A stretch of 64,000 bases of DNA from positions 251,877 to 315,876 of the forward strand of contig NZ_LT985754.1 in the NCBI RefSeq assembly GCF_900290285.1. The letters are read 5' to 3'. The DNA comes from Candidatus Centipeda massiliensis (GTDB taxonomy: Bacteria > Bacillota > Negativicutes > Selenomonadales > Selenomonadaceae). This document shows, in pieces, positions 26,238 through 44,045 of this stretch. The stretch's first letter is position 1. Each line of letters begins with the position of its first letter. Made by a program: the position numbers and the translations under genes. The notes under the pieces are model-generated. The model ran no database searches and was not told the origin of the DNA. It saw only the letters and a list, made by a program, of their open reading frames with translations.

Positions 26238-26242
26238 ATTAG

Positions 26243-26248
26243 TATAAT
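26243..26248 (+). promoter_or_regulatory. Possible -10 box of the toxin-antitoxin-chaperone operon
   Basis: TATAAT just behind the csaB stop. If used, the mRNA starts near 26255, which excludes the ATG at 26247 as start of the first gene. Confidence 0.4.
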
Positions 26249-26276
26249 GATACGTTTATATGCAAGGATGATTCCT

Positions 26277-26864: not shown

Positions 26865-27073
26865 AATTTGATAGAGCGTTATTTGACGCAATCTGCGAAT
26901 CATACGGTGTCGAATTTTGTGAAGGTTATGATCGACCTATGCTGAGAGAAGCGGATGGCAGTATTCATTCTCTTGGAGAAAATGATGTGAAGCGCATGTT
27001 TTCTTCTCGCGTTTATAATATTCCTCAACAATGTGTCTATGAAAGTAATGATATACTGGCTGTTGCCTGTTAG
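26861..27073 (+). CDS. Putative antitoxin of the ART module (CmdA-like position)
   Basis: A 70-aa protein starting at GTG (GAGGAGGAAA upstream) that overlaps the ART gene by GTGA. The product begins MKFDRALFDAICESYGVEF and ends in a hydrophobic tail (VYESNDILAVAC). I recognise no DNA-binding domain. Position and size fit the antitoxin of a toxin-antitoxin-chaperone triplet, where a short C-terminal hydrophobic tag makes the antitoxin dependent on the SecB-like chaperone; the tail here would suit that. The identification rests on context. Confidence 0.55.
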   Translation: MKFDRALFDAICESYGVEFCEGYDRPMLREADGSIHSLGENDVKRMFSSRVYNIPQQCVYESNDILAVAC

Positions 27074-27082
27074 GAGAGTATC

Positions 27083-27484: not shown

Positions 27485-27499
27485 GATGGATCTGCTATT

Positions 27500-27558
27500 C
27501 AGCGCAACAAAACGGCTCCGCTGGAATCATCATTCCGCCGGAGCCGTTTTGTTGTGCT
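27500..27558. terminator. Strong bidirectional terminator
   Basis: AACAAAACGGCTCCG / CGGAGCCGTTTTGTT, extended by GGAAT/ATTCC inside. T-tracts on both strands: it ends the plus-strand toxin module and the minus-strand phosphonate operon, which converge here. Confidence 0.88.
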
Positions 27559-27594
27559 GTTATTCGTACGATTGGTGAACCCGTTTTGATCCTG

Positions 27595-28710
27595 CTACCC
27601 ACGCAGCGTCTGCATCAACGCCTCTTTATTCTCGATTGGTGTTGTGGTTGGCCGCCCAAGATCGGCGCGGGAGCCGATGGCGGTGCGCACCTCAAGGAAG
27701 GTCAGTCCATCGCCCTGTGCGAATCCTGTGAGGGCGCGGGTCAGCTCCTCTGCCGTCGTCGCCGACGGCAGGACGCGATAGCCGAAACTCTCCGCAAGGG
27801 CGGGAAAATGGACGCTGTGCGCCGCCGTCGGAGCGCCGCCGACGCTCTCGTGTGCCTCGTTATTGAGGAGGATGTGCGTGAGATTCGGCGGAGCGGCGGC
27901 GCCAATGGTCGCCATTGCGCCTGTGTGCATGAGCGCCGCACCGTCGCCGTCGAGGACGATCACGCGTCGCTGCGGACGGTGCAGGGCAATGCTGAGCGCT
28001 ATGGCAGAGGCATGCCCCATCGAGCCGACGGTAAGGAAGTCATGCGCGTGCCCCGCGCCGCGTTTCTCCCGCAGCTCGAACAGCTCGCGCCCCGTCTTGC
28101 CCGTTGTTGCGACGATGACGGCATCCCCTGCCGCATCGAGGATCTGGGCAATCGCGTCCTCACGGCGCAGGGTGTAGGCATTCGCGTATTTCCGTTTCGG
28201 ATAGTCCAGTGCCCCGTCACGGACGAGGAGGGCGCACTGACCGCCTTCTTTTAGATGCGGGCGCATCGTCGCCATCCATGCCGCGACCTCTGCGGGCGTG
28301 CTGTCACGCGTCAGCACCATCGTCCGCACCCCCATCGTTTCAAGAAGCGGCAGAGAGAGGCGTCCCTGCACAAGATGCTGCGGCTCATCGTGCAGATCCG
28401 GCTCGCCGCGCCAGCCGATGACGAAGATGCACGGGATGCCGTAGACCTCCCGATGCAGCAGTGAGAGCAGGGGATTGACGAGGTTGCCGAGGCCGCTGTT
28501 CTGCAGGTAGACGAGCGGTACTTTGCCCGTTGCGAGGTGGCAGCCCGCCGCGAGCGCCGCCGCACTTCCCTCATTGGCAGCGATGAGATGCGCAGGGCTG
28601 TTTGCCCCGTACGTATCCATCAGATAATCCACGAGCGGGCGCAGCTTCGAGTCGGGGACACCCGTGAAGCACTCCGCACCGAGCACGGAAATCAGTTCGT
28701 TTACGTTCAT
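27595..28710 (-). CDS. aepY: Phosphonopyruvate decarboxylase
   Basis: A 371-aa TPP enzyme that decarboxylates phosphonopyruvate to phosphonoacetaldehyde, the step that pulls PEP mutase forward. It starts MNVNELISVLGAECFTGVPD; the first half carries the conserved Glu of AANEGSAAALAAG that activates TPP and the second half the TPP/Mg motif GDGAALMHTGAMATIG (about residues 240-260) plus LLNNEAHESVGG. Length is typical for AepY/Fom2/Ppd enzymes (about 370). It is the last gene of the minus-strand phosphonate operon, 12 bases behind paralogue A. Confidence 0.95.
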   Translation of the reverse strand: MNVNELISVLGAECFTGVPDSKLRPLVDYLMDTYGANSPAHLIAANEGSAAALAAGCHLATGKVPLVYLQNSGLGNLVNPLLSLLHREVYGIPCIFVIGWRGEPDLHDEPQHLVQGRLSLPLLETMGVRTMVLTRDSTPAEVAAWMATMRPHLKEGGQCALLVRDGALDYPKRKYANAYTLRREDAIAQILDAAGDAVIVATTGKTGRELFELREKRGAGHAHDFLTVGSMGHASAIALSIALHRPQRRVIVLDGDGAALMHTGAMATIGAAAPPNLTHILLNNEAHESVGGAPTAAHSVHFPALAESFGYRVLPSATTAEELTRALTGFAQGDGLTFLEVRTAIGSRADLGRPTTTPIENKEALMQTLRG

Positions 28711-28722
28711 GGTTACTCCTTT

Positions 28723-30873
28723 TCACACCGACCCGAACCACTGCGGGCGTGCCGCACGCATCGCCGGCCAGAACTCACCGTTGTTTGCGATCGCGCGCAC
28801 AATTTCTCGGGCGCGCGGGTAGAAGAAGCGGCGGAGATCCGCGCTGTCCAGCGCATAGTCCTCCTCGAGTTCGTGGGCGCGCGGGTAGATTGCCACCTTT
28901 GCCTCGGCGAAGTCCACTGTTCCGTCCTCGTCGACCACCTCTTTCGTCTCAAGGCGCAGCGTATGCTCGTGCGTGCGCACGGCGAGCTTGTACGTCTGCC
29001 CCGGGAACATCGACATACTGACCACAGCATCGCGCTCCCGACCGCCAAAGACGGCGGGGAGGTTCCCGTCGATATCGGCGGCGACGGGAAAGCCTGCGAG
29101 GTGTCCGAGCGTGGGGTAGAGATCCGCCGTGCTCGTCAGCTCGTCCGTGACCACACCCGCAGGGACGCCCGCACCGCGCATCATCCACACGGCGCGCGTC
29201 GAATTTTCGCCGATCACATCCACCACGCCGCCCGTCGGGGTCGTGAACACCGAGTTCCCGTGATCGGAGTAGAGGCTGACGATGTATTCGTCCTCCGCGA
29301 AATGTTCCTCGATGTAGGCGAGCAGGTATCCGACGTTGCGGTCGACATGGCGGAGGCTCTGCCAAAACTGCTCCTGATAGATTGCTAGCTTCGGCAGACG
29401 CACGCTCGCGACGTGTTCGTCAATCTCAAAGAGGCGAGTGGCAAGTGGCAGATGCGTTTCCACCGCAGGATAAAATTTGAATCCCTTTGCATTCCATGGA
29501 TGTACGTCTGTTGTATGGAGATAGAGAAATTGATCCGTTTCGTCCAGTGCTTCGAGCTGCATGATTGCACGGTCAGTCATCTCTGCGGACGGCAGCTTCC
29601 ATGCGGCGACATTCATCATATCGTAGCCGCGCAGTGCGCCGCAGTAGACACTGTCGCTTGCACCCATCGGCGCAGCACAGTAGTAGCCGAGATCCGCCAT
29701 GCACTCCGAGAGCGTCTGAAAATCAAGCGGAATCTCATGGCTGTCGCGCTCATTAAACACCTGCGTATGATGCGGCCAGCGTCCCGTCTCGATCACGGGC
29801 AGGGAGGGATAGGTACACTCGGACGTGGAGAAGTGCTGATCGAAAATTGTACCGCGTGCAAAGAAGCGCGCAATGTTCGGCATACAGTCAGGGAAACGTG
29901 TGCGTACCACATTCCATGGGAGTCCATCGACGAGGAGGTTCAGCACGAGCTTCTTCCGTGCGGGACTGTGACCGAGGCGGATCGGCGTGCCCACGGCGTA
30001 GGGCGTATCATCTGCCGCCGCGAGGCGTGTCGTTTCTCCGAGCCGAAAATGGCTGAACGCCCATTTGCCGAGATAGGCCGCTGCGGGCGGCGTGGATGCC
30101 GTCTCCACCGTCAGCTCCTGCAGATACTCTGTCCCCGCAACGGGGACAATGACCTCCGTCCCCTCTGGAACCTCGATGGTCACCGTGCCGCGCACCTCCT
30201 CCGCACGCTGCAGCTGAAAGGGGAAGTCGCGCTGCATCTTGTCAACGAAGACCGCCGTGTGGCGTACCTCCTCAATGAGCGCGCTCTTGTCCGAGAGGAA
30301 GGCGTTCTCCACGTAGGCAGCGACCCAGTGACGCGGCTTTCCTGCGGGCGGCGTCAGCGGCAGATGCTCGCCGACAAAGGCATCGAGGTCAAACCGCAGG
30401 CCAACCTCATCGAGAACGGCGCGGCTCTGCGTCATGGGGGCACCCGTGCCAAGCCCTGCGGCGACGGAGAGGCGATTCAGCCCCTCCGCTCCGCCGCTTG
30501 CGACCAGCTCAATGGGGATCTCTGAGCCGAGGTACAGCCCGTGGGCATAGCCGTACATCGTCAGCGCGTCCGCCGTGCGCCCGCGCCGCGCATGGATCGC
30601 CGCGAGCAGCTTCCACACCTCATAGTTTACGGGGCGGCGGCGATTGGCACGCTCCGCGCAGATCGCAGCACTTTCGACATCGTCATGGTGCAGGAGGTAC
30701 ATGGCGGCAAAGAGATCCGCACGCTCGGAGTCCGGAGCCGCTCCCCGATAGGCGGCGAGCAGCGCAAGGAAATCATCATCATACGCCCCGCGCTCCGTGC
30801 ACGCCAAAAGGTCGTAAAAAAGCGCTTGGGCACGTTCGTCATTTTGCCAAAATACGCTGCAATCGTTCGTCAT
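28723..30873 (-). CDS. TPR plus alkaline-phosphatase-superfamily protein, paralogue A
   Basis: A 716-aa soluble protein, one of six tandem paralogues (A-F). Residues about 1-110 form a TPR-like helical domain (DLFAAMYLLHHDDVESAAIC, EVWKLLAAIHARRGRTADAL); about 150-300 is a beta-rich, variable region; about 305-600 is a sulfatase/phosphodiesterase-type alkaline-phosphatase (AP) core. Metal and catalytic residues are visible: D316 in LVDGLPW, T354 in SECTYPS (nucleophile position), D456 and H458 in TDVHPWN, D537 and H538 in YSDHGN. There is no signal peptide or membrane helix, so it acts in the cytoplasm. It has a long C-terminus ending ARPQWFGSV, like paralogue C. The N-terminus (MTNDCSVFWQ) diverges from the MQDDFTVFWR of the others. 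Reaction unknown; linkage to AEP transfer or hydrolysis is inference. Confidence 0.85.
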   Translation of the reverse strand: MTNDCSVFWQNDERAQALFYDLLACTERGAYDDDFLALLAAYRGAAPDSERADLFAAMYLLHHDDVESAAICAERANRRRPVNYEVWKLLAAIHARRGRTADALTMYGYAHGLYLGSEIPIELVASGGAEGLNRLSVAAGLGTGAPMTQSRAVLDEVGLRFDLDAFVGEHLPLTPPAGKPRHWVAAYVENAFLSDKSALIEEVRHTAVFVDKMQRDFPFQLQRAEEVRGTVTIEVPEGTEVIVPVAGTEYLQELTVETASTPPAAAYLGKWAFSHFRLGETTRLAAADDTPYAVGTPIRLGHSPARKKLVLNLLVDGLPWNVVRTRFPDCMPNIARFFARGTIFDQHFSTSECTYPSLPVIETGRWPHHTQVFNERDSHEIPLDFQTLSECMADLGYYCAAPMGASDSVYCGALRGYDMMNVAAWKLPSAEMTDRAIMQLEALDETDQFLYLHTTDVHPWNAKGFKFYPAVETHLPLATRLFEIDEHVASVRLPKLAIYQEQFWQSLRHVDRNVGYLLAYIEEHFAEDEYIVSLYSDHGNSVFTTPTGGVVDVIGENSTRAVWMMRGAGVPAGVVTDELTSTADLYPTLGHLAGFPVAADIDGNLPAVFGGRERDAVVSMSMFPGQTYKLAVRTHEHTLRLETKEVVDEDGTVDFAEAKVAIYPRAHELEEDYALDSADLRRFFYPRAREIVRAIANNGEFWPAMRAARPQWFGSV

Positions 30874-32979
30874 CTAAATCTCCTCCGGCAGCGGGAACAT
30901 CTCCCCGTTGTTGCCGATCCCCTGTAAGAACTCCCGCACGCGTGGGTAGAAGAAGGAGCGCAGAGCGGGGGTATCCACCGCACGCCCCGGAATCCCCTCG
31001 TATGCACGCGGATAGATCGCAGCCTTTACCCGCGCGAGATCGGCCGTTCCACTGAGTGATACGGGATCGAGCGTTTCAAGGCAGAGTGTATGATCCTGTG
31101 CGCGTGCCGCGAGATAGTAGTGCTTGCGTGGGAAGAGCGAGTTGCTGTACGCGATCTCCCGCCCCGTTCCGCCGAAGATCTGCGGGAGCATACCGTCCAC
31201 CGTTTCATCCACGGGGAAATCGAGGAGATGTGCAAGGGCGGGGTAGATGTCGACGGCGCTTGTCAGCTCATTGGCAACGACGCCCTCAGGAACGCCCGCG
31301 CCGCGCATCATCCACGCCGCCCCCGTCAGCTGCGCGTCCACGATGTAGTGTGCCTCACTGAAGATCGGCACGCCGTGGTCGGAGCAAAGACAGACGAGAT
31401 AGTCCTCTGGGGCATAGTGCCGCTCAAGATAGCAGAACAGTGCGCCGAGTGCGCGATCCGTATCGTGCACCGCCTGCAGGAATGCCGTCTGGTAGAACGC
31501 ACTCGGGCGCAGATAGGGGCTCGCCACCTTTTCCTTTGAACCCGAGAGGCGTCCCGCGAGCGGCAGGCGCATCTGTGCGGCAGAGGAGATCTGGAACGTC
31601 TCGCCGCCCCACGGGTGTACATCATTGAAATGCAGGAAGATAAAATGATCCGCCTCATGACACCCATTCAGATAGCGGATCGTGCGCTCGACCCCCTCGT
31701 ATGCAAAGGTGCGATAGGGCGAGACGATGAGGCGGTCATAGCCGCGCGTCACCCCGTTGTAGATGCCGATGCCGTCGCCCATGAGGCTCGCTGTGGCATA
31801 GCCCGCATCACGCGCCCGCTCGGAGATCGTGATATATTCTTCGTTCAGCTCAATCGCAGCCCACTCACTGAAGATGCCCGTGTGCTGCGGGTACATCCCC
31901 GTCTCGATTGTCGCGAGTGATGGGTAGGTGTACTCAAGCACGGAGAAATGCTGGTCGAAGATTGTGCCGCGCGCGAAAAAACGCGCCGTCTCGGGCATGT
32001 GCTCGGCGAACGATGTGCGCAGCACCTGCCATGGCAGCGCATCCACAAGGACATGCAGGACAAGTTTTTTCCGTGCGGCATTGTGCCGGAGGCGGATCGG
32101 CGTGCCGACGATAAAGTCCTCCGACGAGGTGAGCTTCGTATCTTCATCGAGCCGAAAATAATTCGGTGTTGCAGGATTCAGCCAAATACAATCGTCCACC
32201 GTTCCTGTCGTTGCCGTGAGCACCTGCCCGTCCGCCGTACCGAAGATGGGAATGATCGCCTCCGTGCCCGCCTCAATGGAGATCGTCGCTTCCTTCGGCG
32301 CACGTGAGCCGCGCATGATGTCAAAGGTGAAATCCCCGCCGACATTGGCGGAGAGCCCCGCCGCATTCCGGATTGCATTCATCAGCCAGCGTTTGTTCCC
32401 GTGCACCTCCTGCTCCGTATAGGCACCGACATAGTAGTGCGGCGCAATGTGCTGCGAGACGGGCAGAAACTCCTCGAAGAACACCGTCGATTCTGCCGTA
32501 AGCCCCGCCTCGGGGGTGTACCGCATACGGCTCAGTGCGTATGGCGCGTAGTTCGCCTTGCCCGTCGCCCGCGAGAGGCGGGCAAGCGTCTCCTCCGTCA
32601 GCACGGAGGAGGGAACATCGAGCGTGATGGGCACATGGAAGAAGTTCAGCGCATACCCCTGCATGACGAGCGCGTCCGCATAGCGTCCGCACGCCGCATA
32701 AGCACGGGAGAGCACGTCCCAGACACGCGGCTCGACGGGGCGATGGCGGAAAGCGCGCTCTGCGCAGGCAGCGGCATCCGCTGCGTCACCGCTATGAAGC
32801 AGATACTCAGCGGCAAAGATATCCGCATGAACAGCATTCCCCTCTGTCCCCCGATAGGCGGCAAGTCGGGCGAGAAAGTCATCGTCGTATTCTTCTTTTT
32901 CCGCGCGTGCAAGGAGATCGTAAAAGAGATCATAGGCGCGCGCGTTGTTCCGCCAGAATACCGTGAAATCGTCCTGCAT
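30874..32979 (-). CDS. TPR plus alkaline-phosphatase-superfamily protein, paralogue B
   Basis: A 701-aa paralogue, the most divergent in the middle region. The start at 32979 (MQDDFTVFWRNNARAYDLFY) has AAAGGA upstream; the longer frame upstream only reads spacer sequence. TPR-like region about 45-115. AP core: D313 in LVDALPW, T351 in LEYTYPS, D and H in FNDVHPWGG and CSDHGVPIF. It keeps the WMMRGAGVPEG motif shared by all six. It ends NNGEMFPLPEEI, different from both the GEFWPAMR and GEVFA tail types. Its stop is only one base from the start codon of paralogue A, so the two are translationally coupled. Confidence 0.85.
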   Translation of the reverse strand: MQDDFTVFWRNNARAYDLFYDLLARAEKEEYDDDFLARLAAYRGTEGNAVHADIFAAEYLLHSGDAADAAACAERAFRHRPVEPRVWDVLSRAYAACGRYADALVMQGYALNFFHVPITLDVPSSVLTEETLARLSRATGKANYAPYALSRMRYTPEAGLTAESTVFFEEFLPVSQHIAPHYYVGAYTEQEVHGNKRWLMNAIRNAAGLSANVGGDFTFDIMRGSRAPKEATISIEAGTEAIIPIFGTADGQVLTATTGTVDDCIWLNPATPNYFRLDEDTKLTSSEDFIVGTPIRLRHNAARKKLVLHVLVDALPWQVLRTSFAEHMPETARFFARGTIFDQHFSVLEYTYPSLATIETGMYPQHTGIFSEWAAIELNEEYITISERARDAGYATASLMGDGIGIYNGVTRGYDRLIVSPYRTFAYEGVERTIRYLNGCHEADHFIFLHFNDVHPWGGETFQISSAAQMRLPLAGRLSGSKEKVASPYLRPSAFYQTAFLQAVHDTDRALGALFCYLERHYAPEDYLVCLCSDHGVPIFSEAHYIVDAQLTGAAWMMRGAGVPEGVVANELTSAVDIYPALAHLLDFPVDETVDGMLPQIFGGTGREIAYSNSLFPRKHYYLAARAQDHTLCLETLDPVSLSGTADLARVKAAIYPRAYEGIPGRAVDTPALRSFFYPRVREFLQGIGNNGEMFPLPEEI

Positions 32980-33005
32980 CGTGCTGTCCTTTCTTTGAGG
33001 ATGTC

Positions 33006-33062
33006 GTGAGAGAGCGCCGTTTAGCGCTCTCTTATGCAAACACTTCCCCGTTATTTGCGATC
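33006..33062 (-). pseudogene. 3'-end remnant of a seventh paralogue with spacer
   Basis: The stretch at 33032-33062 encodes, on the minus strand, the last ten codons IANNGEVFA-stop found at the ends of paralogues E and F, yet no gene body is attached: paralogue C's own end (ARPEWFGKE) lies 22 bases further. The flank GTGAGAGAGCGC..TTTAGCGCTCTCTT is the same spacer as between D/E and E/F but without the repeat C element. It is the scar of a lost or recombined paralogue. Confidence 0.75.
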
Positions 33063-33083
33063 CTCCCGTGCCGCACGGGGGGT

Positions 33084-35234
33084 TTATTCCTTCCCAAACC
33101 ACTCCGGCCTAGCCTTTCGCATCGCCGGCCAGAACTCGCCGTTGTTGGCGATCTCACGCAGGAAATTGCGCGCACGCGGATAGAAGAAGCGACGCAGTTC
33201 CTCACTGTCCACGGCATAGCCGTCCTCCGCCTCATGTCCGCGCACGAAGATCGTCGGCTCACACCCCGCGAAGTCGACCGTGCCGTCGTCATCGACGACC
33301 TCGTCCGTCTGGAGTCGCAGCGCGTAGTCGTGCGTGCGCATGGCGAGCTTGAACGTCTGCCCGCGATAGAGGGAGGTGGTATAGACCGCATCGCGCGCCG
33401 TGCCGCCGAATGCGGCGGGCAGATTGCCGTCGATGTCAGGAGCGACGGGGAAGCCGCAGAGATGCCCCAGCGTCGGATAGAGGTCGATGGAGCTGGTCAG
33501 TTCGTGGGTGACGCCCTGCGGGATCCCCGCACCGCGCATCATCCATGTCGCTCCTGTCGAGTTTTCGCCCGTGACATCGACCGACCAGGTATCCGTGTCT
33601 ATGCTGAAGATTGAAACCCCGTGATCCGAATAGAGATTGACGATATACTCGTCCTCTGCGTAGTTTTCCTCGATGAAGGAGAGCAATGTGCCCATCGTGC
33701 GGTCGACATTGCGCGCCCCATCGAGGAACTGTTCCTGATAGATTGCGAGGCTCGGCATGCGCACACTTGCCACGCCGTCCTCCGCAGCAAAGAGCCGCTC
33801 GGAGAGCGGCAGCTGCGTCTCCACCAGCGAGTTGAACTTATAGCCCTTCGCATTGTAGGGATGCACATCCGAGACATGGAGGAAGAGAAAGAGATCCGCC
33901 TCGCCAAATGCCTTGATGTAGCGGATCGTACGGTCTGCACCTGCATAGGCGGGATCGCTCCACGAGCAGGATGTAATCTGATCATAGCCGCGAAAAACAT
34001 CGCTGTAGGTGCAGTCCGACATGAGCATGGGGGAGGCGCAGTGATAGCCCAGCTCCTTCATGCACTCGGCAAGAGTCTTATAGCGTGGGGAGAGGCGATG
34101 ATAGTGCGCTCCGTTGAAGATCTGCGTATGGTGGGAGTAGCGTCCTGTCTCGATCGAGGGGAGCGCAGGATAGGTGAACTCGGATGTGGAGAAATGCTGG
34201 TCAAAGAGGATGCCCTTCTCGAAGAATGCGGCGATGCGCGGCATATCCTGCGCAAAACGAGCGCGCATGACCGGCCACGAGAGTGCGTCTACGAGAATGT
34301 TCAGCACGAGTTTTTTGCGCTGCGGACTGTGCCCGAGGAGGATTGGCGTGCCGACGGCAAAAGAGGCATTTCCCTCGGACTTAAGCGTCGTATCCTCATT
34401 CAGGCGGTAGTAGCCGAATGACCATTTGCCGAGATAGGCTGCGCGCTCGCCCATAGTCTTTGTCGAGATCAGAAACGGCTGGTCTACCTCGGTTCCCGCG
34501 AGCGGCAGGATCGCCTCCATCCCCTCGGGCACCTCGATCTCTACCGTACCCTGTGCCTTGCGTGCCTTCTGTATATGGAATGTGAAGTCGCGATGCCCGC
34601 AGACGGAGAACCACTTTGTGTGGCGTGCGTCCTCGATGAGGAAACTCTTCTCCGAGAGGAATCCGTAGTCCACGTAGCAGCCCACCCAGAACGGATCGCT
34701 GCCGGGCAGCACGGGGAGCGGCAGATCTTCGCCGATAAAGACATCGGGGCAGAACGTGATTTCTCCGTTTTCGAGATGGGCGCGTCGTGTCGCCATCGGC
34801 GCGTACGTCGTGTTCTCGATTGCGGCGGAAAGGTACGCGAGCGCCATCTCCTCGTCCGTATGCGTGAGGCAGAGCGGCGGGAGGGGATCGCCATAGAGGT
34901 TGAAGCAATAGCCGCGCATCATCAGCGCATCGAGTTCGCGTCCGGTCTTCTCGTAGGCGGCGGCAAGCACCTTCCACACCTCATAGTTCACGGGACGCTT
35001 CGCGTAGGCACGCTCCCCACAGACGAGTGCCGTTTCCGCATCGCCGTATGCAAGGAGATACTGTGCGGCAAAGATATCCGCCTTTTCGCTTTCGGGTGCT
35101 GCCTCTCGATAGGCAGCAAGCTGTGTCAGAAAATCGTCGTCGTATTCTTCTTTTTCCGCGCGTGCGAGAAGATCGTAAAAGAGATCACAGGCGCGTGCAT
35201 TGTTGCGCCAGAATACCGTAAAATCGTCCTGCAT
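33084..35234 (-). CDS. TPR plus alkaline-phosphatase-superfamily protein, paralogue C
   Basis: A 716-aa paralogue. The start at 35234 (MQDDFTVFWRNNARACDLFY) follows AAGGGA; an upstream in-frame ATG reads the C-terminal coding region of paralogue D in another frame and is rejected. TPR-like domain with AQYLLAYGDAETALVCGERA. AP core: D of LVDALSW, Thr in TSEFTYPA, D/H in VSDVHPYN and YSDHGVSIF. The long C-terminal tail IANNGEFWPAMRKARPEWFG is shared with paralogue A, suggesting A and C form one subtype. Cytoplasmic by absence of export signals. Confidence 0.85.
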   Translation of the reverse strand: MQDDFTVFWRNNARACDLFYDLLARAEKEEYDDDFLTQLAAYREAAPESEKADIFAAQYLLAYGDAETALVCGERAYAKRPVNYEVWKVLAAAYEKTGRELDALMMRGYCFNLYGDPLPPLCLTHTDEEMALAYLSAAIENTTYAPMATRRAHLENGEITFCPDVFIGEDLPLPVLPGSDPFWVGCYVDYGFLSEKSFLIEDARHTKWFSVCGHRDFTFHIQKARKAQGTVEIEVPEGMEAILPLAGTEVDQPFLISTKTMGERAAYLGKWSFGYYRLNEDTTLKSEGNASFAVGTPILLGHSPQRKKLVLNILVDALSWPVMRARFAQDMPRIAAFFEKGILFDQHFSTSEFTYPALPSIETGRYSHHTQIFNGAHYHRLSPRYKTLAECMKELGYHCASPMLMSDCTYSDVFRGYDQITSCSWSDPAYAGADRTIRYIKAFGEADLFLFLHVSDVHPYNAKGYKFNSLVETQLPLSERLFAAEDGVASVRMPSLAIYQEQFLDGARNVDRTMGTLLSFIEENYAEDEYIVNLYSDHGVSIFSIDTDTWSVDVTGENSTGATWMMRGAGIPQGVTHELTSSIDLYPTLGHLCGFPVAPDIDGNLPAAFGGTARDAVYTTSLYRGQTFKLAMRTHDYALRLQTDEVVDDDGTVDFAGCEPTIFVRGHEAEDGYAVDSEELRRFFYPRARNFLREIANNGEFWPAMRKARPEWFGKE

Positions 35235-35265
35235 GTCATATCCCTTCCCTCGTTCAAAGCGCCCC

Positions 35266-37377
35266 TCAGCCGAACACTTCCCCGTTGTTTGCGATCTCCC
35301 GCACGAAGTCCCGTGCACGCGGATAGAAGAAGCGGCGCAGTTCCTCACTGTCTACGGCATAGTCGTCCTCTAGCTCATGTCCGCGCAGATAAATGCGTGC
35401 TGTCGCCCCTGCAAAGTCCGCCGTCCCATCCTCCTGCGTAAAGCCCTGTGTCTCCACGCGCAGCGTATGCGTCGCACTCCGCACGGCGAGCTTGAACGTC
35501 TGCCCCGGGAACTGGGAGGCGGAATAGACGGCATCGCGCGCCGCGCCGCCGAAGACGGCGGGCAGATTGCCGTCGATATCACCTGAGATGTGGAAACCGC
35601 ATAGATGTCCGAGGGTCGGATAGATGTCAACGGAGGAGGTCAGCTCGTCCGCAACGATGCCCGCAGGAACGCCCGCCCCGCGCATCATCCACGCTGCGCC
35701 TGTCGCATACGTTCCGATCACATCGACCGCCCGTCCGCGCGTGTTCGGATCGAAGATGGAGCAGCCGTGATCGGAGTAGAGATTTACGATATACTCATCC
35801 GTGTCATAGCGCTCCTCGATATAGCTGAGGAGGTGTCCGAGCGTGCGGTCGATATGGGCGAGGCTGATGCGGAACTGTTCCAGATATATCGGCAGATGCG
35901 GCGTTCTGACGCTTGGCACCGTCGGATCCAGGGGGACAAAGCGATCCGCGAGCGGCACGGAGAGTTCCGCTGCCGTTGAGAATTTGAGCGGGGTCTGTAT
36001 GTTCAGTGGATGGACATCCGTGATATGCAGGAGCATGAAATGATCCGTTTCAGGGAATGCCTCCAGCGTCCGCAGGGTGCGCTCGACGCCCTCGTAGGCG
36101 GGCAGAAATCCATAGCTCGAGATGAGGCGGTCATAGCCGCGGTATGTGCCGTAGTAGCAGCACTGCCCCGTTGCCATCGGGGCGGTGCAGTAGTAGCCGA
36201 GCGATTTCATCTGCTCCGCGAGCGTCAGCAGCGTATGCGGCATCTCGTGGCTGTCCCGCTCGTTGAATACGTGCGTGTGGTGAGCGTAAAACCCCGTCTC
36301 GATGGAGGGGAGGGAGGGCAACGTGTACTCCGAGGCGGAGAAATGTTGATCGAAGATCGTGCCCTGCGAGAAAAAGCGTGCAATGCGCGGCATGTGCACA
36401 GAAAAAAGACCATCTGTAGCGGGGCGGCATAGCCCATCCACGAGAATGTTCAGCACGAGCTTTTTGAGCGCGGGACTATGGCGCAGTGGGATCGGCGTGC
36501 CGACGGCATAGGGAACGCCGTCCTCCGAGCGCAGCGTGACGCTCTCATTGAGACGGAAATAGCTGAACGCATACTTGCCGAGATGACCGATGTGCTCCCC
36601 GCTGCTGTCTTTGATGGCGAAGCCCTGCGCGAACTTCGTCCCCGCGACGGGCAGCGCGACAGGCACGCCATCCGACAGTTCGATGCGATGCTGCCCCGTG
36701 ACCGTACTGACACGCTGCAGGTCAAAGGTAACGTCGCGGTCGTTTATCATAAAGAAGTGATCGTGCCGCATCTTTTCGTACACCATGCCCTTCGTCGAGA
36801 GGAAGCCCTCGTCCACGAAGAGCCCCGCCCAGAGACGTGGTACTCCCGCCCGCTCCATGAGGGGGATCTCCTCCCCAAGGAAGGTGTCGGGGCGAAAGTG
36901 CAGCGTCCCGTTTTCGAGATAGGTACGGCTGCTCAGCATGGGAGCACTGTTACAGGTGTTGGCGGCAAGCGAAAAGCGCTTCAACGCCTCGTTGATCTCT
37001 TTTTTGGGCAATGTGAGGGAAATGTCTTCCATCGGATACAGCCCTTGGATATGCCCCTGCATTGTGAGCGCATCCAGTTCGCGCCCAACGCCCTTGTAGG
37101 CGGCGGCGAGCACCTTCCACACCTCATAGTTTACGGGACGTTTCGCGTAGGCGCGCTCCCCGCAGACGAGTGCCGTTTCCGCATCGCCGTATGCAAGGAG
37201 ATACTGTGCGGCAAAGATATCCGCATGCACGGTATTTCCCATTGCCTCACGGTAGGCGGCAAGCTGGGCGAGGAAGTCGTCATCGTAGGCGTCCTTTTTG
37301 GCGCGCGCCAAAAGATCCTGAAAGAAATCGTAGGCGCGTGCATTGTTCCGCCAGAATACCGTGAAATCGTCCTGCAT
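35266..37377 (-). CDS. TPR plus alkaline-phosphatase-superfamily protein, paralogue D
   Basis: A 703-aa paralogue (MQDDFTVFWRNNARAYDFFQ). The TPR segment AQYLLAYGDAETALVCGERA is identical to that of paralogue C although the following region differs, which suggests gene conversion of the N-terminal part. AP core: D of LVDGLCR, where the usual Trp after the VDGL/VDAL motif is replaced; Thr in SASEYTLPS; ITDVHPLN; YSDHGCSIF. It ends IANNGEVFG. Start follows AAAGGACAGGACG. The spacer to paralogue C is only 31 bases. Confidence 0.85.
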   Translation of the reverse strand: MQDDFTVFWRNNARAYDFFQDLLARAKKDAYDDDFLAQLAAYREAMGNTVHADIFAAQYLLAYGDAETALVCGERAYAKRPVNYEVWKVLAAAYKGVGRELDALTMQGHIQGLYPMEDISLTLPKKEINEALKRFSLAANTCNSAPMLSSRTYLENGTLHFRPDTFLGEEIPLMERAGVPRLWAGLFVDEGFLSTKGMVYEKMRHDHFFMINDRDVTFDLQRVSTVTGQHRIELSDGVPVALPVAGTKFAQGFAIKDSSGEHIGHLGKYAFSYFRLNESVTLRSEDGVPYAVGTPIPLRHSPALKKLVLNILVDGLCRPATDGLFSVHMPRIARFFSQGTIFDQHFSASEYTLPSLPSIETGFYAHHTHVFNERDSHEMPHTLLTLAEQMKSLGYYCTAPMATGQCCYYGTYRGYDRLISSYGFLPAYEGVERTLRTLEAFPETDHFMLLHITDVHPLNIQTPLKFSTAAELSVPLADRFVPLDPTVPSVRTPHLPIYLEQFRISLAHIDRTLGHLLSYIEERYDTDEYIVNLYSDHGCSIFDPNTRGRAVDVIGTYATGAAWMMRGAGVPAGIVADELTSSVDIYPTLGHLCGFHISGDIDGNLPAVFGGAARDAVYSASQFPGQTFKLAVRSATHTLRVETQGFTQEDGTADFAGATARIYLRGHELEDDYAVDSEELRRFFYPRARDFVREIANNGEVFG

Positions 37378-37413
37378 CGTCCTGTCCTTTCCGCATCGTG
37401 AGAGAGCGCTGTG

Positions 37414-37735
37414 CGGTACTCCGTAACAAACCCTAGTGGAGCAAGCGGGAAAAAGTGTGCGACCCGCCCCCTGCGGATTTTAACCGGAGGGGCGCAGCGC
37501 GTTTGGAATCCGCAGGTATGGGGAATCACGAACGCAATGATGTTGTTCAGATTGGTGCAGATTTTCCGTCCTGTCAAGGAGATAAACCGGAAGCATAGCG
37601 GTGGCTATGCTGAGGATTTATCGACGCAGAGAGGGCGAAAAAGATGTGCCAAGATGGAGAGCTGAATGCGTCCGTGATTCCCTCGCGGACGAGCACACGA
37701 CCGCTTGCGTAACGAGGGTTCTGCGAGGAGTACCG
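37414..37735 (-). repeat. Repeat family C, copy 3, split by a MITE
   Basis: Left part CGGTACTCCGTAACAAACCC to GCGGATTTTAACC..AATCCGCAGGTAT (37414-37519) and right part GCGGACGAGCACACGACCGC to GGTTCTGCGAGGAGTACCG (37685-37735) together equal the uninterrupted copy at 39896-40056. Confidence 0.88.
37522..37681 (+). repeat. MITE family A, variant copy inserted in repeat C
   Basis: 160 bp. Interior matches the other MITEs (TTGGTGCAGATTTTCCGTCC, GAGGGCGAAAAAGATGTGCC) but both ends are changed together: GGAATCACGAACGCA at the left and TGCGTCCGTGATTCC at the right, still mutually inverted. No clear target duplication is left. Confidence 0.85.
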
Positions 37736-37747
37736 TTTAGCGCTCTC

Positions 37748-39859
37748 TTATGCAAACACTTCCCCGTTATTTGCGATCTCCCGCACGAAGTCCCGTGCGC
37801 GAGGATAGAAGAAGCGGCGCAGCTCCGCACTGTCCACGGCGCAGGCGGGATCGAACTCGTGCCCGCGCGGATAGATCTCTGCCATCGCCCCTGCAAAGTT
37901 CGCCGTCCCATCTGTTTCCGTAAATCCCTGCGTCTCCATGCGCAGGGCATAGTCGTGTGTGCGCACAGCAAGCTTGAACGTCTGCCCCGGGAACTGGGAG
38001 GCGCTGCACACGCAATCGCGCGGCGTGCCGCCGAAAACAGCGGGGAGGCGTCCGTCAATATCACCGGTGACGGGAAAACCGCACAGGTGCGCAAGCGTCG
38101 GAAAAATATCCACGCTGCTCGTCAGATCCTGCACCCGCACGCCCTCGGGCACGCCTGCGCCGCGCATCATCCACGCCGCGCCGGTGGAGTTTTCGCTGAT
38201 GACATCGACCCTGCCGTCCGGCGGGGGTGGCGCAAAAATCGAGGAGCCGTGATCGGAGTAGAGATTGACGATGTATTCGTCCTCCGTATACCGCTGCGTG
38301 ATATAGGCAAAGAGCTGTCCTAGGCTTCGATCCACATGGCACAGGTTTGCGAAGAATTGCCGCTGATAGATGGGGTAGTGGGGGAGACGGACGCTTAGCC
38401 CGTTCTTTTCGAGTGGAAAAAGCCGCTCCTCAGGCGGCAGATGTGTCTCAACCTCGGGCGCGAACTTATAGCCGACCCCGTTCCACGGGTGTACGTCTGC
38501 GCAGTGGAGAAAGAGGAACTGATCCGCCTCGTCGAACGCCTCCAGATGACGGATCGTGCGCTCGACCCCCTCGTGACAGGGAAGATTCCCCGTATGTGTG
38601 AGAATACGGTCATGCCCCCGCAGTGCGCCTGAGTAGATGCCGTCTCCACTCGCCATTACGGCGGTACAATAATAGCCAAGATCCTTCATGCACTCGGACA
38701 GCGTCCTATGGGCAGGGAGGAGGGGGTGACTGTTCTGTTCGTTGAACACTTGCGTATGATGTGGGCAGCGTCCCGTCTCGATAGCGGGCAGAGCTGGGTA
38801 GGTGTACTCGGAGGTGGAGAAATGCTGATCGAAGACGGTGCCGCGCGCAAAGAACTGCGCCGTCTCGGGCATCCGTGCGGCGAAGCATTCACGTACCGCC
38901 GGCCATGAAAGACCGTCCACGAGAATGTTCAGCACGAGCTTCCTGCGGTGCGGTGCATGTCCGACGCGAATGGGTGTGCCCACGATGTAGGGGCTATCGT
39001 CCTCCGCGCGCAGCGTCACGCTCTCATCGAACCGAAAGTAGCTGAACGCCCATTTGCCGAGTACGGCAGGACGCTCACTGCCTGACACGGAAACAAAGAG
39101 TTTTTGCCCCTCCTCCGTACCCGCCACGGGCACATAGACGGCACCGCCCTCGGTCACCTCAATGGCGCTTGTGGCACGGCATTCGTGCGCCTTCTGCAGA
39201 TCGAATACGAAGTCCTGGCAGCGATACGCGAGAAGGTGTGGGTCGGTTCGGAGCGCGTCCAAAAAGATGCTGCGCTCGGACAAGACCTCGTTTTCAACAT
39301 AGACCGCCGACCAAAAGGGAATCCCATCGGGCGTGTCTATGGGAAGCGGCTCGCCAAGGAGGAGATCGGGGGCAAAGTGCAGCCCTTCCTCGTCAATGAT
39401 GGCACGCGTGGGGAGCAGGGGGGCGCAGTTCCCTGTATTGATGGCGACGGAAAAGCGCGCGAGTGCCGCGCGCATATTTTCCTCCGTCAAATGGAGCGAG
39501 AGGTGTGCATGAGCAGGATCGTGGCGATAGAGATAGCCCTGCAGGACGGCAGCATCGAGCGTGCGGCCGCACATCGCATAGGCGGCGGCGAGTACCTTCC
39601 ACAGCGCATGATTCACAGGGCGCTTCGCATACGCGCGCTCGCCGCAGGAGACGGCGTTCTCCACGTCGCCGTGGTGCAGGAGATACTGCGCGGCAAAGAT
39701 GTCCGCATTCTCACTTGTGGGCGATTCCGCACGGTAGACGGCAAGCTGGGCGAGGAAGTCGTCATCGTAGGCGTTCTTTGCGGCGCGCGCCAAAAGATCC
39801 TGAAAGAGATCGTAGGCACGTTCGTTGTTGCGCCAGAATACCGTGAAATCGTCCTGCAT
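37748..39859 (-). CDS. TPR plus alkaline-phosphatase-superfamily protein, paralogue E
   Basis: A 703-aa paralogue (MQDDFTVFWRNNERAYDLFQ). TPR-like region with AQYLLHHGDVENAVSCGERA. AP core: D of LVDGLSW, Thr in TSEYTYPA, ADVHPWNG, YSDHGSSIF. The C-terminus is IANNGEVFA. The 208-base spacer upstream (towards F) contains a full repeat C element. Start follows AAAGGACAGGACG, the same leader as paralogue D. No signal peptide. Likely same class of reaction as the other five, with a different acceptor specificity set by the variable middle region (inference). Confidence 0.85.
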   Translation of the reverse strand: MQDDFTVFWRNNERAYDLFQDLLARAAKNAYDDDFLAQLAVYRAESPTSENADIFAAQYLLHHGDVENAVSCGERAYAKRPVNHALWKVLAAAYAMCGRTLDAAVLQGYLYRHDPAHAHLSLHLTEENMRAALARFSVAINTGNCAPLLPTRAIIDEEGLHFAPDLLLGEPLPIDTPDGIPFWSAVYVENEVLSERSIFLDALRTDPHLLAYRCQDFVFDLQKAHECRATSAIEVTEGGAVYVPVAGTEEGQKLFVSVSGSERPAVLGKWAFSYFRFDESVTLRAEDDSPYIVGTPIRVGHAPHRRKLVLNILVDGLSWPAVRECFAARMPETAQFFARGTVFDQHFSTSEYTYPALPAIETGRCPHHTQVFNEQNSHPLLPAHRTLSECMKDLGYYCTAVMASGDGIYSGALRGHDRILTHTGNLPCHEGVERTIRHLEAFDEADQFLFLHCADVHPWNGVGYKFAPEVETHLPPEERLFPLEKNGLSVRLPHYPIYQRQFFANLCHVDRSLGQLFAYITQRYTEDEYIVNLYSDHGSSIFAPPPPDGRVDVISENSTGAAWMMRGAGVPEGVRVQDLTSSVDIFPTLAHLCGFPVTGDIDGRLPAVFGGTPRDCVCSASQFPGQTFKLAVRTHDYALRMETQGFTETDGTANFAGAMAEIYPRGHEFDPACAVDSAELRRFFYPRARDFVREIANNGEVFA

Positions 39860-39895
39860 CGTCCTGTCCTTTCCGCATCGTGAGAGAGCGCTGTG

Positions 39896-40056
39896 CGGTA
39901 CTCCGTAGCAAACCCTAGTGGAGCAAGCGGGAAAAAGTGTGCGACCCGCCCCCTGCGGATTTTAACCGTTCAAGCGCAGCGCGTTTGGAATCCGCAGGTA
40001 TTTAGGCGGACGAGCACACGACCGCTTGCGTAACGAGGGTTCTGCGAGGAGTACCG
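39896..40056 (-). repeat. Repeat family C, copy 4
   Basis: 161 bp with ends CGGTACTCCGTAGCAAACCC and GGGTTCTGCGAGGAGTACCG. It is bordered by GAGAGAGCGCTGTG and TTTAGCGCTCTCTT, also inverted. Serves as the empty-site reference for the MITE insertion in copy 3. Confidence 0.88.
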
Positions 40057-40068
40057 TTTAGCGCTCTC

Positions 40069-42168
40069 TTATGCAAACACTTCCCCGTTATTCGCGATCT
40101 CCCGCACGAAATCCCGTGCACGCGGATAGAAAAACGCACGCAGTTCGGGGCTGTTCACGGCATACTCCTTTTCCAGCTCATGCCCGCGCGGATAGATGCG
40201 CACTGTCGCCTCTGCAAAGTCCGCCGTCCCATCCTTTCTAACGAAGCCCTGTGTTTCAAGGCGCAGGGCATGCTCATGCGTGCGCACGGCGAGCTTGTAC
40301 GTCTGCCCGGGGAAATGAGAGGCGCTATAGACCGCATCGCGCTCCTTGCCGCCGAAGACGGCGGGCAGATTCCCGTCGATCTTCGGCGGCACATAGAATC
40401 CGCAGAGATGGCCGAGTGTTGGGTACAGATCCACCGTACTCGTCAGCTCCTGTGCGACAACACCTTCGGGCACGCCGGCACCGCGCATCATCCACGTCGC
40501 GCTCGTGGCGTACTCGCTCATGAGATCACCGCTATTCCCCGCCGTGCAGCTGAATACGGACGCACCGTGATCGGAGTAGAGATTCACGAGGTACTCCTCC
40601 TCCGCAAAGGTCTGCTCAATCTCGGAGAAGAGCAGACCAAGGTTGCGGTCGAGCTGGCGCATACGTTCCAAATACTGCTCCCGATAGATTTGGAGCGCGG
40701 CGAGACGTACACTCGGCGCGTCCTTGTCTTGGGCGGGAAAGCGTTCGGCGAGCGGCAGATGTGTCTCCACCGTCGTGTCGATCTTGTACCCGTGTATGTT
40801 GTACGGATGCACGTCGTTCGTGACGAGCAGAAGATACTGGTCGCACTCCTCAAAGGCTCGAATCTGGCGCAGGACACGATCTGTGCCATCAAGCGAATGC
40901 TGGATCCACGAGGAAGTGACGACGCGGTCAAAGCCGCGCAGCTCACCGTGCAGGAGCAGCTGATTCGCTGCCATTGGCGTAGCGCAGTAGTAGCCCAGAT
41001 CCTTCATCTGCTCCGCCGTTGTCCGCATGGAGAGTGGCAGTTCATAGCCCGCATCCACGTTGAAAATATGTGTGTGGTGGGGGTAATACCCCGTTTCGAT
41101 CGCGGCAAATGCGGGCAGCGTGTACTCGGATGTCGAAAAGTGCTGATCGAAGATCGTACCGCGTGAAAAAAAGCGCGTGATGTTCGGCAGATGCGTTGCG
41201 GCGTAGGGGCGTGCAATTACCCACGACAGTGCATCGACAAAGATGTTCAGGACGAGCTTGCGCCGCGCGGGGCTGTGTCCGAGGAGAATCGGCGTACCAA
41301 CCGCGTATGGGGTATCGGAGCGAAGTTCGGTATCCTCGTCGAGACGCAGAAAGCTGAACGTCCACTGACCGAGCGCCGTCTCATGCGTGTCGTCCGCTGT
41401 GCGGATGAAGAGGGGCTGATCTTCCTCCGTCCCTGCGACGGGAAGGATCGCCTCACGCGCAGGGACTTTGAGCGAGACGATGCCGCACGCTGCGCGAGCC
41501 TTTTGCAGATCGAAGAAGAAATTGCGGTGCCCGTACGAGAGGAACCAGTCGGCATGACGCCCCGCAGCGAGGGTGTGGCTGTGGGCGTAGATCCCCTCGT
41601 TCTCAGCATAGACTCCGCTCCAAAAGCGCGCGCTGCCCTCCGGCATCGTCATAGGGATTTCCTCACCGACAAAGGCATCGAAGCGAAAGGAAAGCTCCCC
41701 ATTTTCCATATAGGCACGGCTCCCCGCAACGGGCAGCTGAAAGCATTTTCCCATCGCAAAGGTGAGGCGTCCGAGTCCTTCCTCCACCTTATCCGCCGTG
41801 AGGGATAGGGCGAGCTTCGGCGTGCCGTAGAGTCCGTAGGCACGACCCTGCATGACGAGAGAATCCATCTCCCGATGAAGCGCTTTGTATGCAACGGCAA
41901 GGATCTTTAGAACCTCGTGATTCAGCGGGCGCTTCGCATAAGCACGCTCGCCGCAGATCACTGCATTCTCCACGTCGCCGTGGTGCAGGAGATACTGCGC
42001 GGCAAAGATGTCCGCCTTTTCGCTTTCGGGCGATTCCGCACGGTAGGCGGCAAGCTGGGCGAGGAAGTCGTCATCGTAGGCGTTCTTTGCGGCGCGCACC
42101 AAAAGATCCTGAAAGAGATCGTAGGCGCGGTCGTTGTTTCGCCAGAATACCGTGAAATCGTCCTGCAT
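40069..42168 (-). CDS. TPR plus alkaline-phosphatase-superfamily protein, paralogue F
   Basis: A 699-aa paralogue and the first of the six to be transcribed, 71 bases behind phnW. MQDDFTVFWRNNDRAYDLFQ; TPR-like AQYLLHHGDVENAVICGERA nearly identical to paralogue E. AP core: D of FVDALSW, Thr in TSEYTLPA, TNDVHPYN, YSDHGASVF. It ends IANNGEVFA like E. Start follows AAAGGACATC. Across A-F the catalytic positions and the WMMRGAGVP motif are constant while the 120-300 region varies, as in a family diversified for substrates. Confidence 0.85.
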   Translation of the reverse strand: MQDDFTVFWRNNDRAYDLFQDLLVRAAKNAYDDDFLAQLAAYRAESPESEKADIFAAQYLLHHGDVENAVICGERAYAKRPLNHEVLKILAVAYKALHREMDSLVMQGRAYGLYGTPKLALSLTADKVEEGLGRLTFAMGKCFQLPVAGSRAYMENGELSFRFDAFVGEEIPMTMPEGSARFWSGVYAENEGIYAHSHTLAAGRHADWFLSYGHRNFFFDLQKARAACGIVSLKVPAREAILPVAGTEEDQPLFIRTADDTHETALGQWTFSFLRLDEDTELRSDTPYAVGTPILLGHSPARRKLVLNIFVDALSWVIARPYAATHLPNITRFFSRGTIFDQHFSTSEYTLPAFAAIETGYYPHHTHIFNVDAGYELPLSMRTTAEQMKDLGYYCATPMAANQLLLHGELRGFDRVVTSSWIQHSLDGTDRVLRQIRAFEECDQYLLLVTNDVHPYNIHGYKIDTTVETHLPLAERFPAQDKDAPSVRLAALQIYREQYLERMRQLDRNLGLLFSEIEQTFAEEEYLVNLYSDHGASVFSCTAGNSGDLMSEYATSATWMMRGAGVPEGVVAQELTSTVDLYPTLGHLCGFYVPPKIDGNLPAVFGGKERDAVYSASHFPGQTYKLAVRTHEHALRLETQGFVRKDGTADFAEATVRIYPRGHELEKEYAVNSPELRAFFYPRARDFVREIANNGEVFA

Positions 42169-42239: not shown

Positions 42240-43334
42240 CTACGCCTTTAGTGCCGCTTCCAACACGCGGAAAAAGCCCTTGATATCCGTCTCGTCAATC
42301 GCGCCGAGGGCGCAGAGGCGGAACGTCGAGGAGGTCTGCATCTTGCCGGGATAGATGGTGTAGCCGCGCTCGTAGCAATAGTCGTGTACTCGTGTGAAAT
42401 CAAAGTCCGCCGACGGATATTCCACGGCGACGACGAGCCCCGACTGGATCTCACGGGGGATTGCCTCCGTGAGACCAAGCCTCGCGAGCCCTTCATGAAT
42501 GGCATTGATGGTTCGCGTATGGCGTGCCCACTTCTTCGCCGCACCCTCGGCAAAGTACTCCGCGAGTGCGCGCCTTGCGGCATACACGGTCTGCACGGGT
42601 GGGGTGAAGCGCATCTCGCCCGTCTCCTCGAATCCCTCGTACTGCATGACGAGATTCGTGTAGTAGGAGCGCACGGGATATGCCTTTGCCGCGTCGAGGA
42701 CGGTCTTTCGCGCGATCACAAAGGACAGCCCCGTCATGCCCTGAATGCCCTTCTGTGCCGAGGACATACAGACATCGATGTTCATCTCATCCACCGTGAA
42801 CGGGATCATGGCGTAGGTCGAGATCGTGTCCGCAATCATGATGGCACCGTGCGCGTGGGCGAGGGTGCCGATCTCGCGCACGGGATTCAGGATGCCTGTT
42901 CCCGTCTCCTGATGCGTCGTGTAGACGGCGGCGATGTCCGGATTCTCATCGAGTACCCGTTCAACCTCCGCGAGATCGGGCAGCCCGTCGATGGGGAACT
43001 GTAGGTCGATATGCGGCACGCTGTAGGCGCGCGCCATCGCAGCCGCACGCGCGGAGTACGCGCCGTTGTTGACGATGAGGAGCTTCCCATCCGCAGGGAC
43101 GAGCGAGCTGACGCAGGCATCCATCGCAATGGTTCCCGAGCCGCAGAAAAGGACGGTCGCCCAGTCCGCAGGATCTGCGTGGACGACCTTGCCGAGATCC
43201 GTGCCGAGATCCCGCATCAGCTGCCCGAACTCCCGCTCGCGCGGGCAGATATCGGGGACGAGCTGTGCACGTTTGACCGTGTCGGTGGTCGTTGCGGGGC
43301 CGGGGTTGAGGAGAATGTTGCGTTTGATATCCAT
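42240..43334 (-). CDS. phnW: 2-aminoethylphosphonate-pyruvate aminotransferase
   Basis: A 364-aa fold-type I PLP enzyme. In a biosynthetic locus it runs in the direction phosphonoacetaldehyde plus alanine to 2-aminoethylphosphonate plus pyruvate. Family motifs: start NILLNPGPATTTDTVK, SGTIAMDACVSSL (phosphate cup), the Asp in MIADTISTYA, and the PLP lysine in SSAQKGIQGMTGLSF (about residue 190). C-terminal small domain includes GYTIYPGKMQTSSTFRLCALG. Length is normal. It follows the methyltransferase gene by three bases and precedes the paralogue array. Confidence 0.95.
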   Translation of the reverse strand: MDIKRNILLNPGPATTTDTVKRAQLVPDICPREREFGQLMRDLGTDLGKVVHADPADWATVLFCGSGTIAMDACVSSLVPADGKLLIVNNGAYSARAAAMARAYSVPHIDLQFPIDGLPDLAEVERVLDENPDIAAVYTTHQETGTGILNPVREIGTLAHAHGAIMIADTISTYAMIPFTVDEMNIDVCMSSAQKGIQGMTGLSFVIARKTVLDAAKAYPVRSYYTNLVMQYEGFEETGEMRFTPPVQTVYAARRALAEYFAEGAAKKWARHTRTINAIHEGLARLGLTEAIPREIQSGLVVAVEYPSADFDFTRVHDYCYERGYTIYPGKMQTSSTFRLCALGAIDETDIKGFFRVLEAALKA

Positions 43335-43337: not shown

Positions 43338-44045
43338 TCACTTCCGATACATAAAACAGGTAAAGACGAACGGGTTGTTCCAGTAATGCGCCAGTTCGAG
43401 ACTGGGGAAGAGGATGGAGAGATCATGCGCAGCAGCAAAGCCCTCGAAGAAGGAGCGGCGGTAGAATAGGCGGCTCAGCCCCTCATAGCGTTCGTCATAG
43501 TTTGGGATGTTCGCGCGGCGGAAGGCAAGATACTCCTGTCGTGTCGCGCGGTCATGCAGCTCCGTGATGCCAATGGCGTGCGTGCTCTTTTCGAGCATCC
43601 GCTCGAGCACGCGGGTCGTGTAGTCATGATCGGGGAAATAGGAGAAGACGCCGCAGGAATAGACCGCGTCGTACTTCTCCTCCGTCGGAATGTCCGCCGC
43701 CTCCATCGCGCCCATCTCGCGTGCGTCGGGCACGACCATACGTGCCGTCTCGACCAGTCCCGCGGCATAGTCGCTGCCGCCGACAATCAGCCCCTCGCGC
43801 TGCATGAGGTACATATTCGCGCCTGCACCGCAGCCAACCTCATAGACGGACTTGCCCGGCGTGAGGTCGAGCAGCTCCACGAGACCTGCGTTGAAGTTGA
43901 GATAGGAGTCCAGCGGGATGCCGCCCTCTATCACATCATAGCCATTGAGGCGCTTCAGTTCGAGAAAGACTTCCTGCCAATCGCCGTCGAGTCCGCCCGT
44001 GACGGGTCTCCTGCGGTTCCAGATTTCCTTCCATTTATTTCCCAA
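43338..44045 (-). CDS. Class I SAM-dependent methyltransferase
   Basis: A 235-aa methyltransferase. The SAM-binding motif I is VYEVGCGAGANMYLM (about residues 66-80), followed by GGSDYAAGLVETA (motif II acidic residue) and YDAVYSCGVFSYFPD (motif IV/V). It is tightly placed: start one base from the end of the PEP mutase gene and stop three bases before phnW. The substrate cannot be read from sequence; N-methylation of AEP or methylation of a phosphonate-bearing glycan are reasonable options given the operon, both inferred. Confidence 0.85.
   Translation of the reverse strand: MGNKWKEIWNRRRPVTGGLDGDWQEVFLELKRLNGYDVIEGGIPLDSYLNFNAGLVELLDLTPGKSVYEVGCGAGANMYLMQREGLIVGGSDYAAGLVETARMVVPDAREMGAMEAADIPTEEKYDAVYSCGVFSYFPDHDYTTRVLERMLEKSTHAIGITELHDRATRQEYLAFRRANIPNYDERYEGLSRLFYRRSFFEGFAAAHDLSILFPSLELAHYWNNPFVFTCFMYRK

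Follow-up and report, generated by a model that had tools for sequence, protein, structure and literature searches.

Activation of the phosphonate 2-aminoethylphosphonate (AEP, 2-AEP) with CTP is widespread in bacteria, and the tailoring steps that come later have been called enigmatic (PMC6697681). The description of the PntC/AepX phosphonyl tailoring pathway (Rice et al., 2019; PMC6697681), with which the locus reported here shares AEP synthesis and CTP activation, leaves subsequent tailoring open, notes LicD-like genes nearby and never mentions a sulfatase. LicD (PF04991), a CDP-choline-dependent phosphocholine transferase, fills in licA-licB-licC and aepX-PntC operons the same slot as the alkaline phosphatase (AP) superfamily proteins that we describe; the two may share donor class and cytosolic location, but they belong to different families, the AP proteins having PF00884. 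A second point of comparison is provided by EptA, PptA and LtaS, which have the AP fold and a threonine nucleophile and handle similar zwitterionic groups. These enzymes are anchored in the membrane and work outside the cytoplasm, and phospholipids supply the group that they transfer. PptA acts on protein, and its phospholipid donor has been inferred (PMC10434233). The third is the type A modification of C. difficile flagellin (CD0240-CD0244), which combines a LicC-like cytidylyltransferase, a methyltransferase, a glycosyltransferase and a CDP-dependent phosphotransferase, as the AP loci appear to do. In that system, flagellin GlcNAc is the proposed target of LicC-like CD0242, methyltransferase CD0243 and phosphotransferase CD0244 (PMC10714395), and GlcNAc of the C. 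difficile flagellin glycan can carry 2-AEP (PMC8861647). The type A phosphotransferase is TagF-like, whereas here we propose an AP-superfamily protein in its place, in multi-copy arrays.

We analyzed a stretch of 64,000 nucleotides (the window) from Candidatus Centipeda massiliensis, in which an AEP operon encloses six AP-superfamily genes (Table 1). Transcription would run from the LicC/PntC-like gene through aepX, the methyltransferase, phnW and AP copies F, E, D, C, B and A to aepY. The phosphoenolpyruvate mutase, aminotransferase and decarboxylase all exceed their curated cut-offs (394 bits against 320, 425 against 361 and 432 against 313, respectively), which identifies a complete AEP biosynthesis operon; the AP copies are the genes without an assigned step in it. 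Searched against the PDB, the cytidylyltransferase matched S. pneumoniae LicC best (1jyk, E 1e-30 over residues 9-238) and T. denticola PntC second (6pd1, E 6e-12), a full-length similarity that places it with LicC/PntC. Promoter and terminator scans gave scores no better than those of shuffled sequences. The methyltransferase family travels with the AEP operon in relatives, in one or two copies, and its homologues adjoin AP genes at L066, L129 and L137, some such operons being without aepX. It may act on the amino head-group, which would then be N-methylated.

Table 1. Genes of the putative AEP operon in transcription order; coordinates count from the first nucleotide of the window.
Feature	Coordinates	Strand	Models and remarks
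LicC/PntC-type cytidylyltransferase (MobA-like NTP transferase)	45650..46375	-	PF12804; first gene of the putative AEP operon; overlaps trpS
aepX, phosphoenolpyruvate mutase with N-terminal CTP_transf_like domain	44046..45341	-	TIGR02320; PF01467 + PF13714
SAM methyltransferase	43338..44045	-	PF08241 and related models
phnW/aepZ, 2-AEP aminotransferase	42240..43334	-	TIGR03301
AP paralogue F, 699 aa	40069..42168	-	TPR-like 1-140, beta-rich variable middle ~141-300, AP core 301-699; nucleophile T350
AP paralogue E, 703 aa	37748..39859	-	PF00884 and motifs
AP paralogue D, 703 aa	35266..37377	-	PF00884 and motifs
AP paralogue C, 716 aa from conserved start	33084..35234	-	PF00884 and motifs
AP paralogue B, 701 aa	30874..32979	-	PF00884 and motifs; in a separate well-supported clade within the genus
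AP paralogue A, 716 aa	28723..30873	-	PF00884 and motifs
aepY, phosphonopyruvate decarboxylase	27595..28710	-	TIGR03297

The initial annotation of the window, which was made from its letters, had described six full-length paralogues of 699-716 aa lying head to tail between phnW and aepY, and the six reading frames are indeed intact and co-directional. The longest frames of copies B and C begin upstream (742 and 754 aa), and the conserved start MQDDFTVFW gives the lengths in Table 1. All six copies match Pfam Sulfatase (PF00884, E 8e-16 to 6e-22), and the PF00884/PF01663 matches support assignment to the AP superfamily; a Pfam scan of the six for the LicD domain PF04991 returned none. Pairwise identities to copy F or A are ~43-57%. 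The shared catalytic positions and the WMMRGAGVP-type motif that had been reported are present throughout, in that VD[AG]L, E[YFC]T[YL]P, DVHP, SDHG and WMMRGAG[VI]P occur in 6/6 copies. The strong variation noted at about 120-300 also holds, with residues 1-90 ~70% identical among the six and residues 121-270 ~34%. Neighbouring copies share up to 88-91% DNA identity at their 5' ends, which fits recent duplication or gene conversion.

As had been noted, the copies carry no segment resembling a signal peptide or transmembrane helix (19-residue Kyte-Doolittle maximum 1.3 in the six), and this extends to all 88 family members that we surveyed, whose maximum stays below 1.7. The description of the array as soluble, of the AP superfamily and connected with AEP synthesis stands. 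The same result bears on whether phospholipids could serve these proteins as donors of phospho-groups, as they do for EptA, PptA and LtaS. Their common superfamily and threonine nucleophile would favour such a donor, as would the modification of pilin with phosphocholine or phosphoethanolamine by PptA (PMC10434233). However, a transmembrane-like segment is found in 0/88 members; where the known enzymes have an N-terminal transmembrane domain, the AP copies have a TPR-like N-terminus, and their recurrent partner is a CTP cytidylyltransferase, the maker of a soluble activated donor. The Lic-1 and PptA pathways are, moreover, reported never to coexist (PMC10434233), and we regard a phospholipid donor as highly improbable.

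The AF2 model of copy F (pLDDT 93.1, pTM 0.93) comprises helical pairs at 13-139, a beta-rich middle domain at 147-300 and an AP core at 301-699. Sub-threshold TPR_4/TPR_16 matches were obtained for copy B alone, and the N-terminal profile matches designed TPR proteins. Modelled alone (pLDDT 89), the middle domain gave no Foldseek match below E 1e-3 in the PDB; its VIA comparisons reached Z 7.3 at most, to beta-sandwich and cupin-like domains, without a confident match. The nearest solved folds to the core (residues 299-699 in this comparison) are type I sulfatases, choline sulfatase and phosphonate monoester hydrolases (Z ~28, with ~357 residues superposed at rmsd ~3.3 Å), followed by PafA (24.9) and nucleotide pyrophosphatase (NPP, 24.7). 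This predicted core fold, at Z 24-28, and the presence of D312, T350, D533 and H534 (copy F numbering) in 88/88 members place the family in the AP superfamily, as first proposed from the letters alone. E348, H454, D507, S532, G535, D580 and R610 are likewise invariant in the 88. A two-metal, NPP-like site was considered; D452 is kept in 82/88 members and H454 in all, but a third conserved ligand was not identified among the 88. The nucleophile position is threonine in every member, in place of the cysteine or serine that becomes formylglycine, and no arginine stands at +4, so that the C/S-x-P-x-R motif is absent there. A simple sulfatase or phosphonate monoester hydrolase is ruled out by this nucleophile motif.

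The family was found in 13/13 same-genus relatives, with 2-8 matches each including fragments. In-genus synteny takes the form trpS-[LicC/PntC, aepX, one or two methyltransferases, phnW, several AP copies, aepY]-csaB, with a varying set of AP copies. Centipeda periodontii has lost the AEP genes: fragments remain of the cytidylyltransferase and of aepY, together with a single intact AP copy. When 380 genomes of the class were searched with a profile, 41 were positive, all within one bacterial family, and among 398 genomes spread over the phylum a single positive fell outside it; the AP proteins are thus almost confined to one bacterial family, with oral Selenomonas and Centipeda the carriers among named records. 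In the tree of the 88 proteins, AEP and choline contexts are intermixed, with at least seven changes required for the AEP label, and proteins from an AEP context (L126) and a choline context (L130) are sisters. For the most part, the copies in the arrays of Selenomonas, G258/G266, G252 and G290 group by lineage, apart from one another; the arrays expanded independently in at least four genera, Selenomonas and three others.

Across about ten genera, AP genes adjoin a LicC/PntC-type CTP cytidylyltransferase. In other genera some belong to AEP operons, often as several copies interleaved with the AEP genes: five at L127, four each at L131 and L137, three at L132, two at L150 and one each at L069, L126 and L142. 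Other AP genes lie beside licA-licC without aepX, with or without a choline transporter (L067, L123, L124, L125, L130, L133), or next to a fusion of a cytidylyltransferase with a threonine-phosphate-decarboxylase-like domain (L066, L129). In the distant relative, from another taxonomic family of the same phylum, an AP protein with ~30% identity adjoins choline kinase (licA), LicC and a choline transporter of the BCCT type; NeuB-type sugar genes occur in the same region, and flagellin genes lie 12 kb away. Within AP-positive genomes, 16 of the 21 LicC/PntC-like genes, one of them a LicC fragment, lie no more than 4 kb from an AP gene, against an expectation of ~0.8% each under a crude uniform-placement model that ignores relatedness and the general clustering of glycan genes. 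Because the genomes are related and glycan genes cluster, this figure indicates association rather than mechanism; better evidence comes from the independent expansions and the distant relative, since there the pairing repeats on separate branches.

The common denominator of the AEP, choline and fusion contexts would be a CMP-activated zwitterionic head-group, and the best explanation is then a family of soluble transferases for AEP, phosphocholine or a related group. We consider it likely that all six paralogues act in the cytosol as soluble phospho(no)transferases of the AP superfamily, with CMP-AEP or CDP-choline as the donor. Their targets would be glycans, probably O-glycans linked to protein, and the variable middle domain would determine which acceptor is used. 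The CMP-AEP-dependent transfer suggested in the initial annotation is therefore retained as the best reading, with the donor inferred from genomic context. Its restriction to phosphonates is not, as members from sister lineages are found in CDP-choline (licA-licC) operons and next to the cytidylyltransferase fusion; strict phosphonate specificity is ruled out by the choline-type contexts. Homologues away from phosphonate genes, which had been named as contrary to the proposal, do exist, but most of them adjoin the parallel CDP-choline pathway.

The distribution of LicD is largely complementary. LicC/PntC operons without AP genes mostly have LicD (L071, L146, L147, L148); one has neither (L149), and at another (L072, genome G033) LicD is ~15 kb away. 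A 60-genome search returned LicD in 0/12 aepX-positive Selenomonas relatives; 11 of the 12 are counted as having no LicD anywhere in the genome, and five of these relatives (G002, G003, G006, G010, G012) had neither LicD nor a TagF-like protein. In the present genome a single LicD lies on another contig; a TagF-like protein (PF04464) is missing, so that it differs from the C. difficile type A system in this respect. Where LicD and TagF-like proteins are both missing, the AP genes appear, from a comparison of these gene families, to be the operon's remaining transferase candidates, and the family offers a concrete candidate for genomes without LicD. LicD nevertheless coexists with AP genes in the operons of L069, L123, L124, L126, L129 and L150, so that the AP proteins are not simply its replacement; a pure replacement is ruled out by this co-occurrence.

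The operons in which both occur also leave room for the AP proteins to be hydrolases, acting in editing or turnover by stripping AEP or phosphocholine from glycans or by cleaving CMP-AEP or CDP-choline, with LicD as the transferase. The AP fold holds mostly hydrolases, and the nearest solved structures are among them. The intact copy of C. periodontii, retained where only fragments of the cytidylyltransferase and of aepY are left, speaks against our preferred explanation. Against hydrolysis, many operons have AP genes and no LicD, including those of the five Selenomonas genomes named above, the formylglycine motif is missing, and six cytosolic copies that remove a product are hard to rationalise in a biosynthetic operon. 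We therefore judge hydrolysis to be improbable, and the removal of phosphonate esters, raised in the initial annotation as the other possible activity, is disfavoured on the same grounds: the operons are biosynthetic, and the AP proteins are often their sole transferase candidates.

Under the preferred reading of CMP-AEP/CDP-choline-dependent transfer, AepX, AepY and PhnW would make AEP, with optional N-methylation, and the LicC/PntC-like protein or the N-terminal domain of AepX would activate it with CTP to CMP-AEP. The conserved threonine (T350 in copy F), beside a metal site formed by D312, D533 and H534, could then attack the activated phosphorus, releasing CMP and passing AEP via a threonine intermediate to a glycan hydroxyl. 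If acceptor choice lies with the TPR-like N-terminus and the variable middle domain, a multi-copy array would provide several acceptor specificities. In relatives, the same family would use CDP-choline or a related CDP-amino-alcohol.

The acceptor would most likely be a protein-linked O-glycan rather than a lipid, with flagellin as the leading candidate. AP genes lie within 35 kb of flagellin in 11/14 non-Selenomonas genomes tested (at 0.3 kb in G153), and GT41 genes are found near many non-Selenomonas AP loci. At L070:16636-19860, a GT41 (OGT-type) glycosyltransferase domain and an AP-family domain form a single protein of 1074 aa, much as a glycosyltransferase and a phosphotransferase are joined in P. 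aeruginosa FgtA. In the present genome, the array is ~300 kb from the nearest flagellin gene, a distance at which position does not indicate the Selenomonas acceptor; GT41 genes adjoin flagellin here, and the array is linked to neither. The acceptor is the least certain step of the scheme because the flagellin link is weaker for the window's own array. This leaves some scope for CMP-AEP-dependent transferases that act on LPS or on a different surface polysaccharide or lipid, a reading that would accord with the unlinked Selenomonas array and with known phosphonate clusters of this type, read as phosphonoglycan or phosphonolipid types (PMC6697681). We consider such an acceptor rather unlikely, given the flagellin neighbourhoods of the non-Selenomonas loci, the GT41 fusion and the TPR-like domain, which is also found in GT41 protein glycosyltransferases. 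The lipid-linked acceptor included in the initial annotation likewise gained no support from these neighbourhoods and the fusion.

The AP superfamily and head-group transfer are both known; the soluble, nucleotide-donor, TPR-bearing, arrayed form appears in no paper that we found in the open-licence literature, a search that also returned none on Selenomonas phosphonates. More tentatively, an undescribed class of cytosolic AP proteins might use CMP-AEP or CDP-choline to place phosphonate or phosphocholine on glycoproteins, the Selenomonas paralogues phosphonylating different acceptors or sites and so forming a strain-variable phosphonate code on surface proteins. If our reading is correct, a soluble, nucleotide-dependent branch would be added to a superfamily in which the known head-group transferases are membrane-bound and lipid-dependent, protein glycosylation would gain a connection to phosphonates in bacteria common in the mouth and gut, and tools for placing zwitterionic groups on glycoproteins could follow.

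Two further family members in this genome, at C1:679542-683850 (equivalent to L009:7474-11932; 36-37% identity), adjoin fhs (formate-tetrahydrofolate ligase), a placement conserved in other Selenomonas; in this genome, radical SAM, ACP and KAS-III-like genes come after them. Near this pair phosphonate and choline genes are absent, and members at seven other loci (L068, L135, L136, L138-L141) similarly have neither AEP nor choline genes nearby; such members count against the preferred explanation. At L066:12904-14706 and L129:7803-9604, the fusion of LicC-like and threonine-phosphate-decarboxylase-like domains lies beside a methyltransferase and an AP gene, and is a possible route to a CDP-amino-alcohol. 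A LicC-LicA fusion at L067:10820-12494 is apparently split into two overlapping frames by a frameshift or sequencing error. Within the window, the G+C content is lower (0.50) at 26000-28000, between csaB and aepY, where a 205-aa reading frame (26247-26864) has no Pfam match. An IS110-family transposase (50413-51702) lies upstream of a 2623-aa reading frame (51952-59823) that has no Pfam match and an apparent signal sequence.
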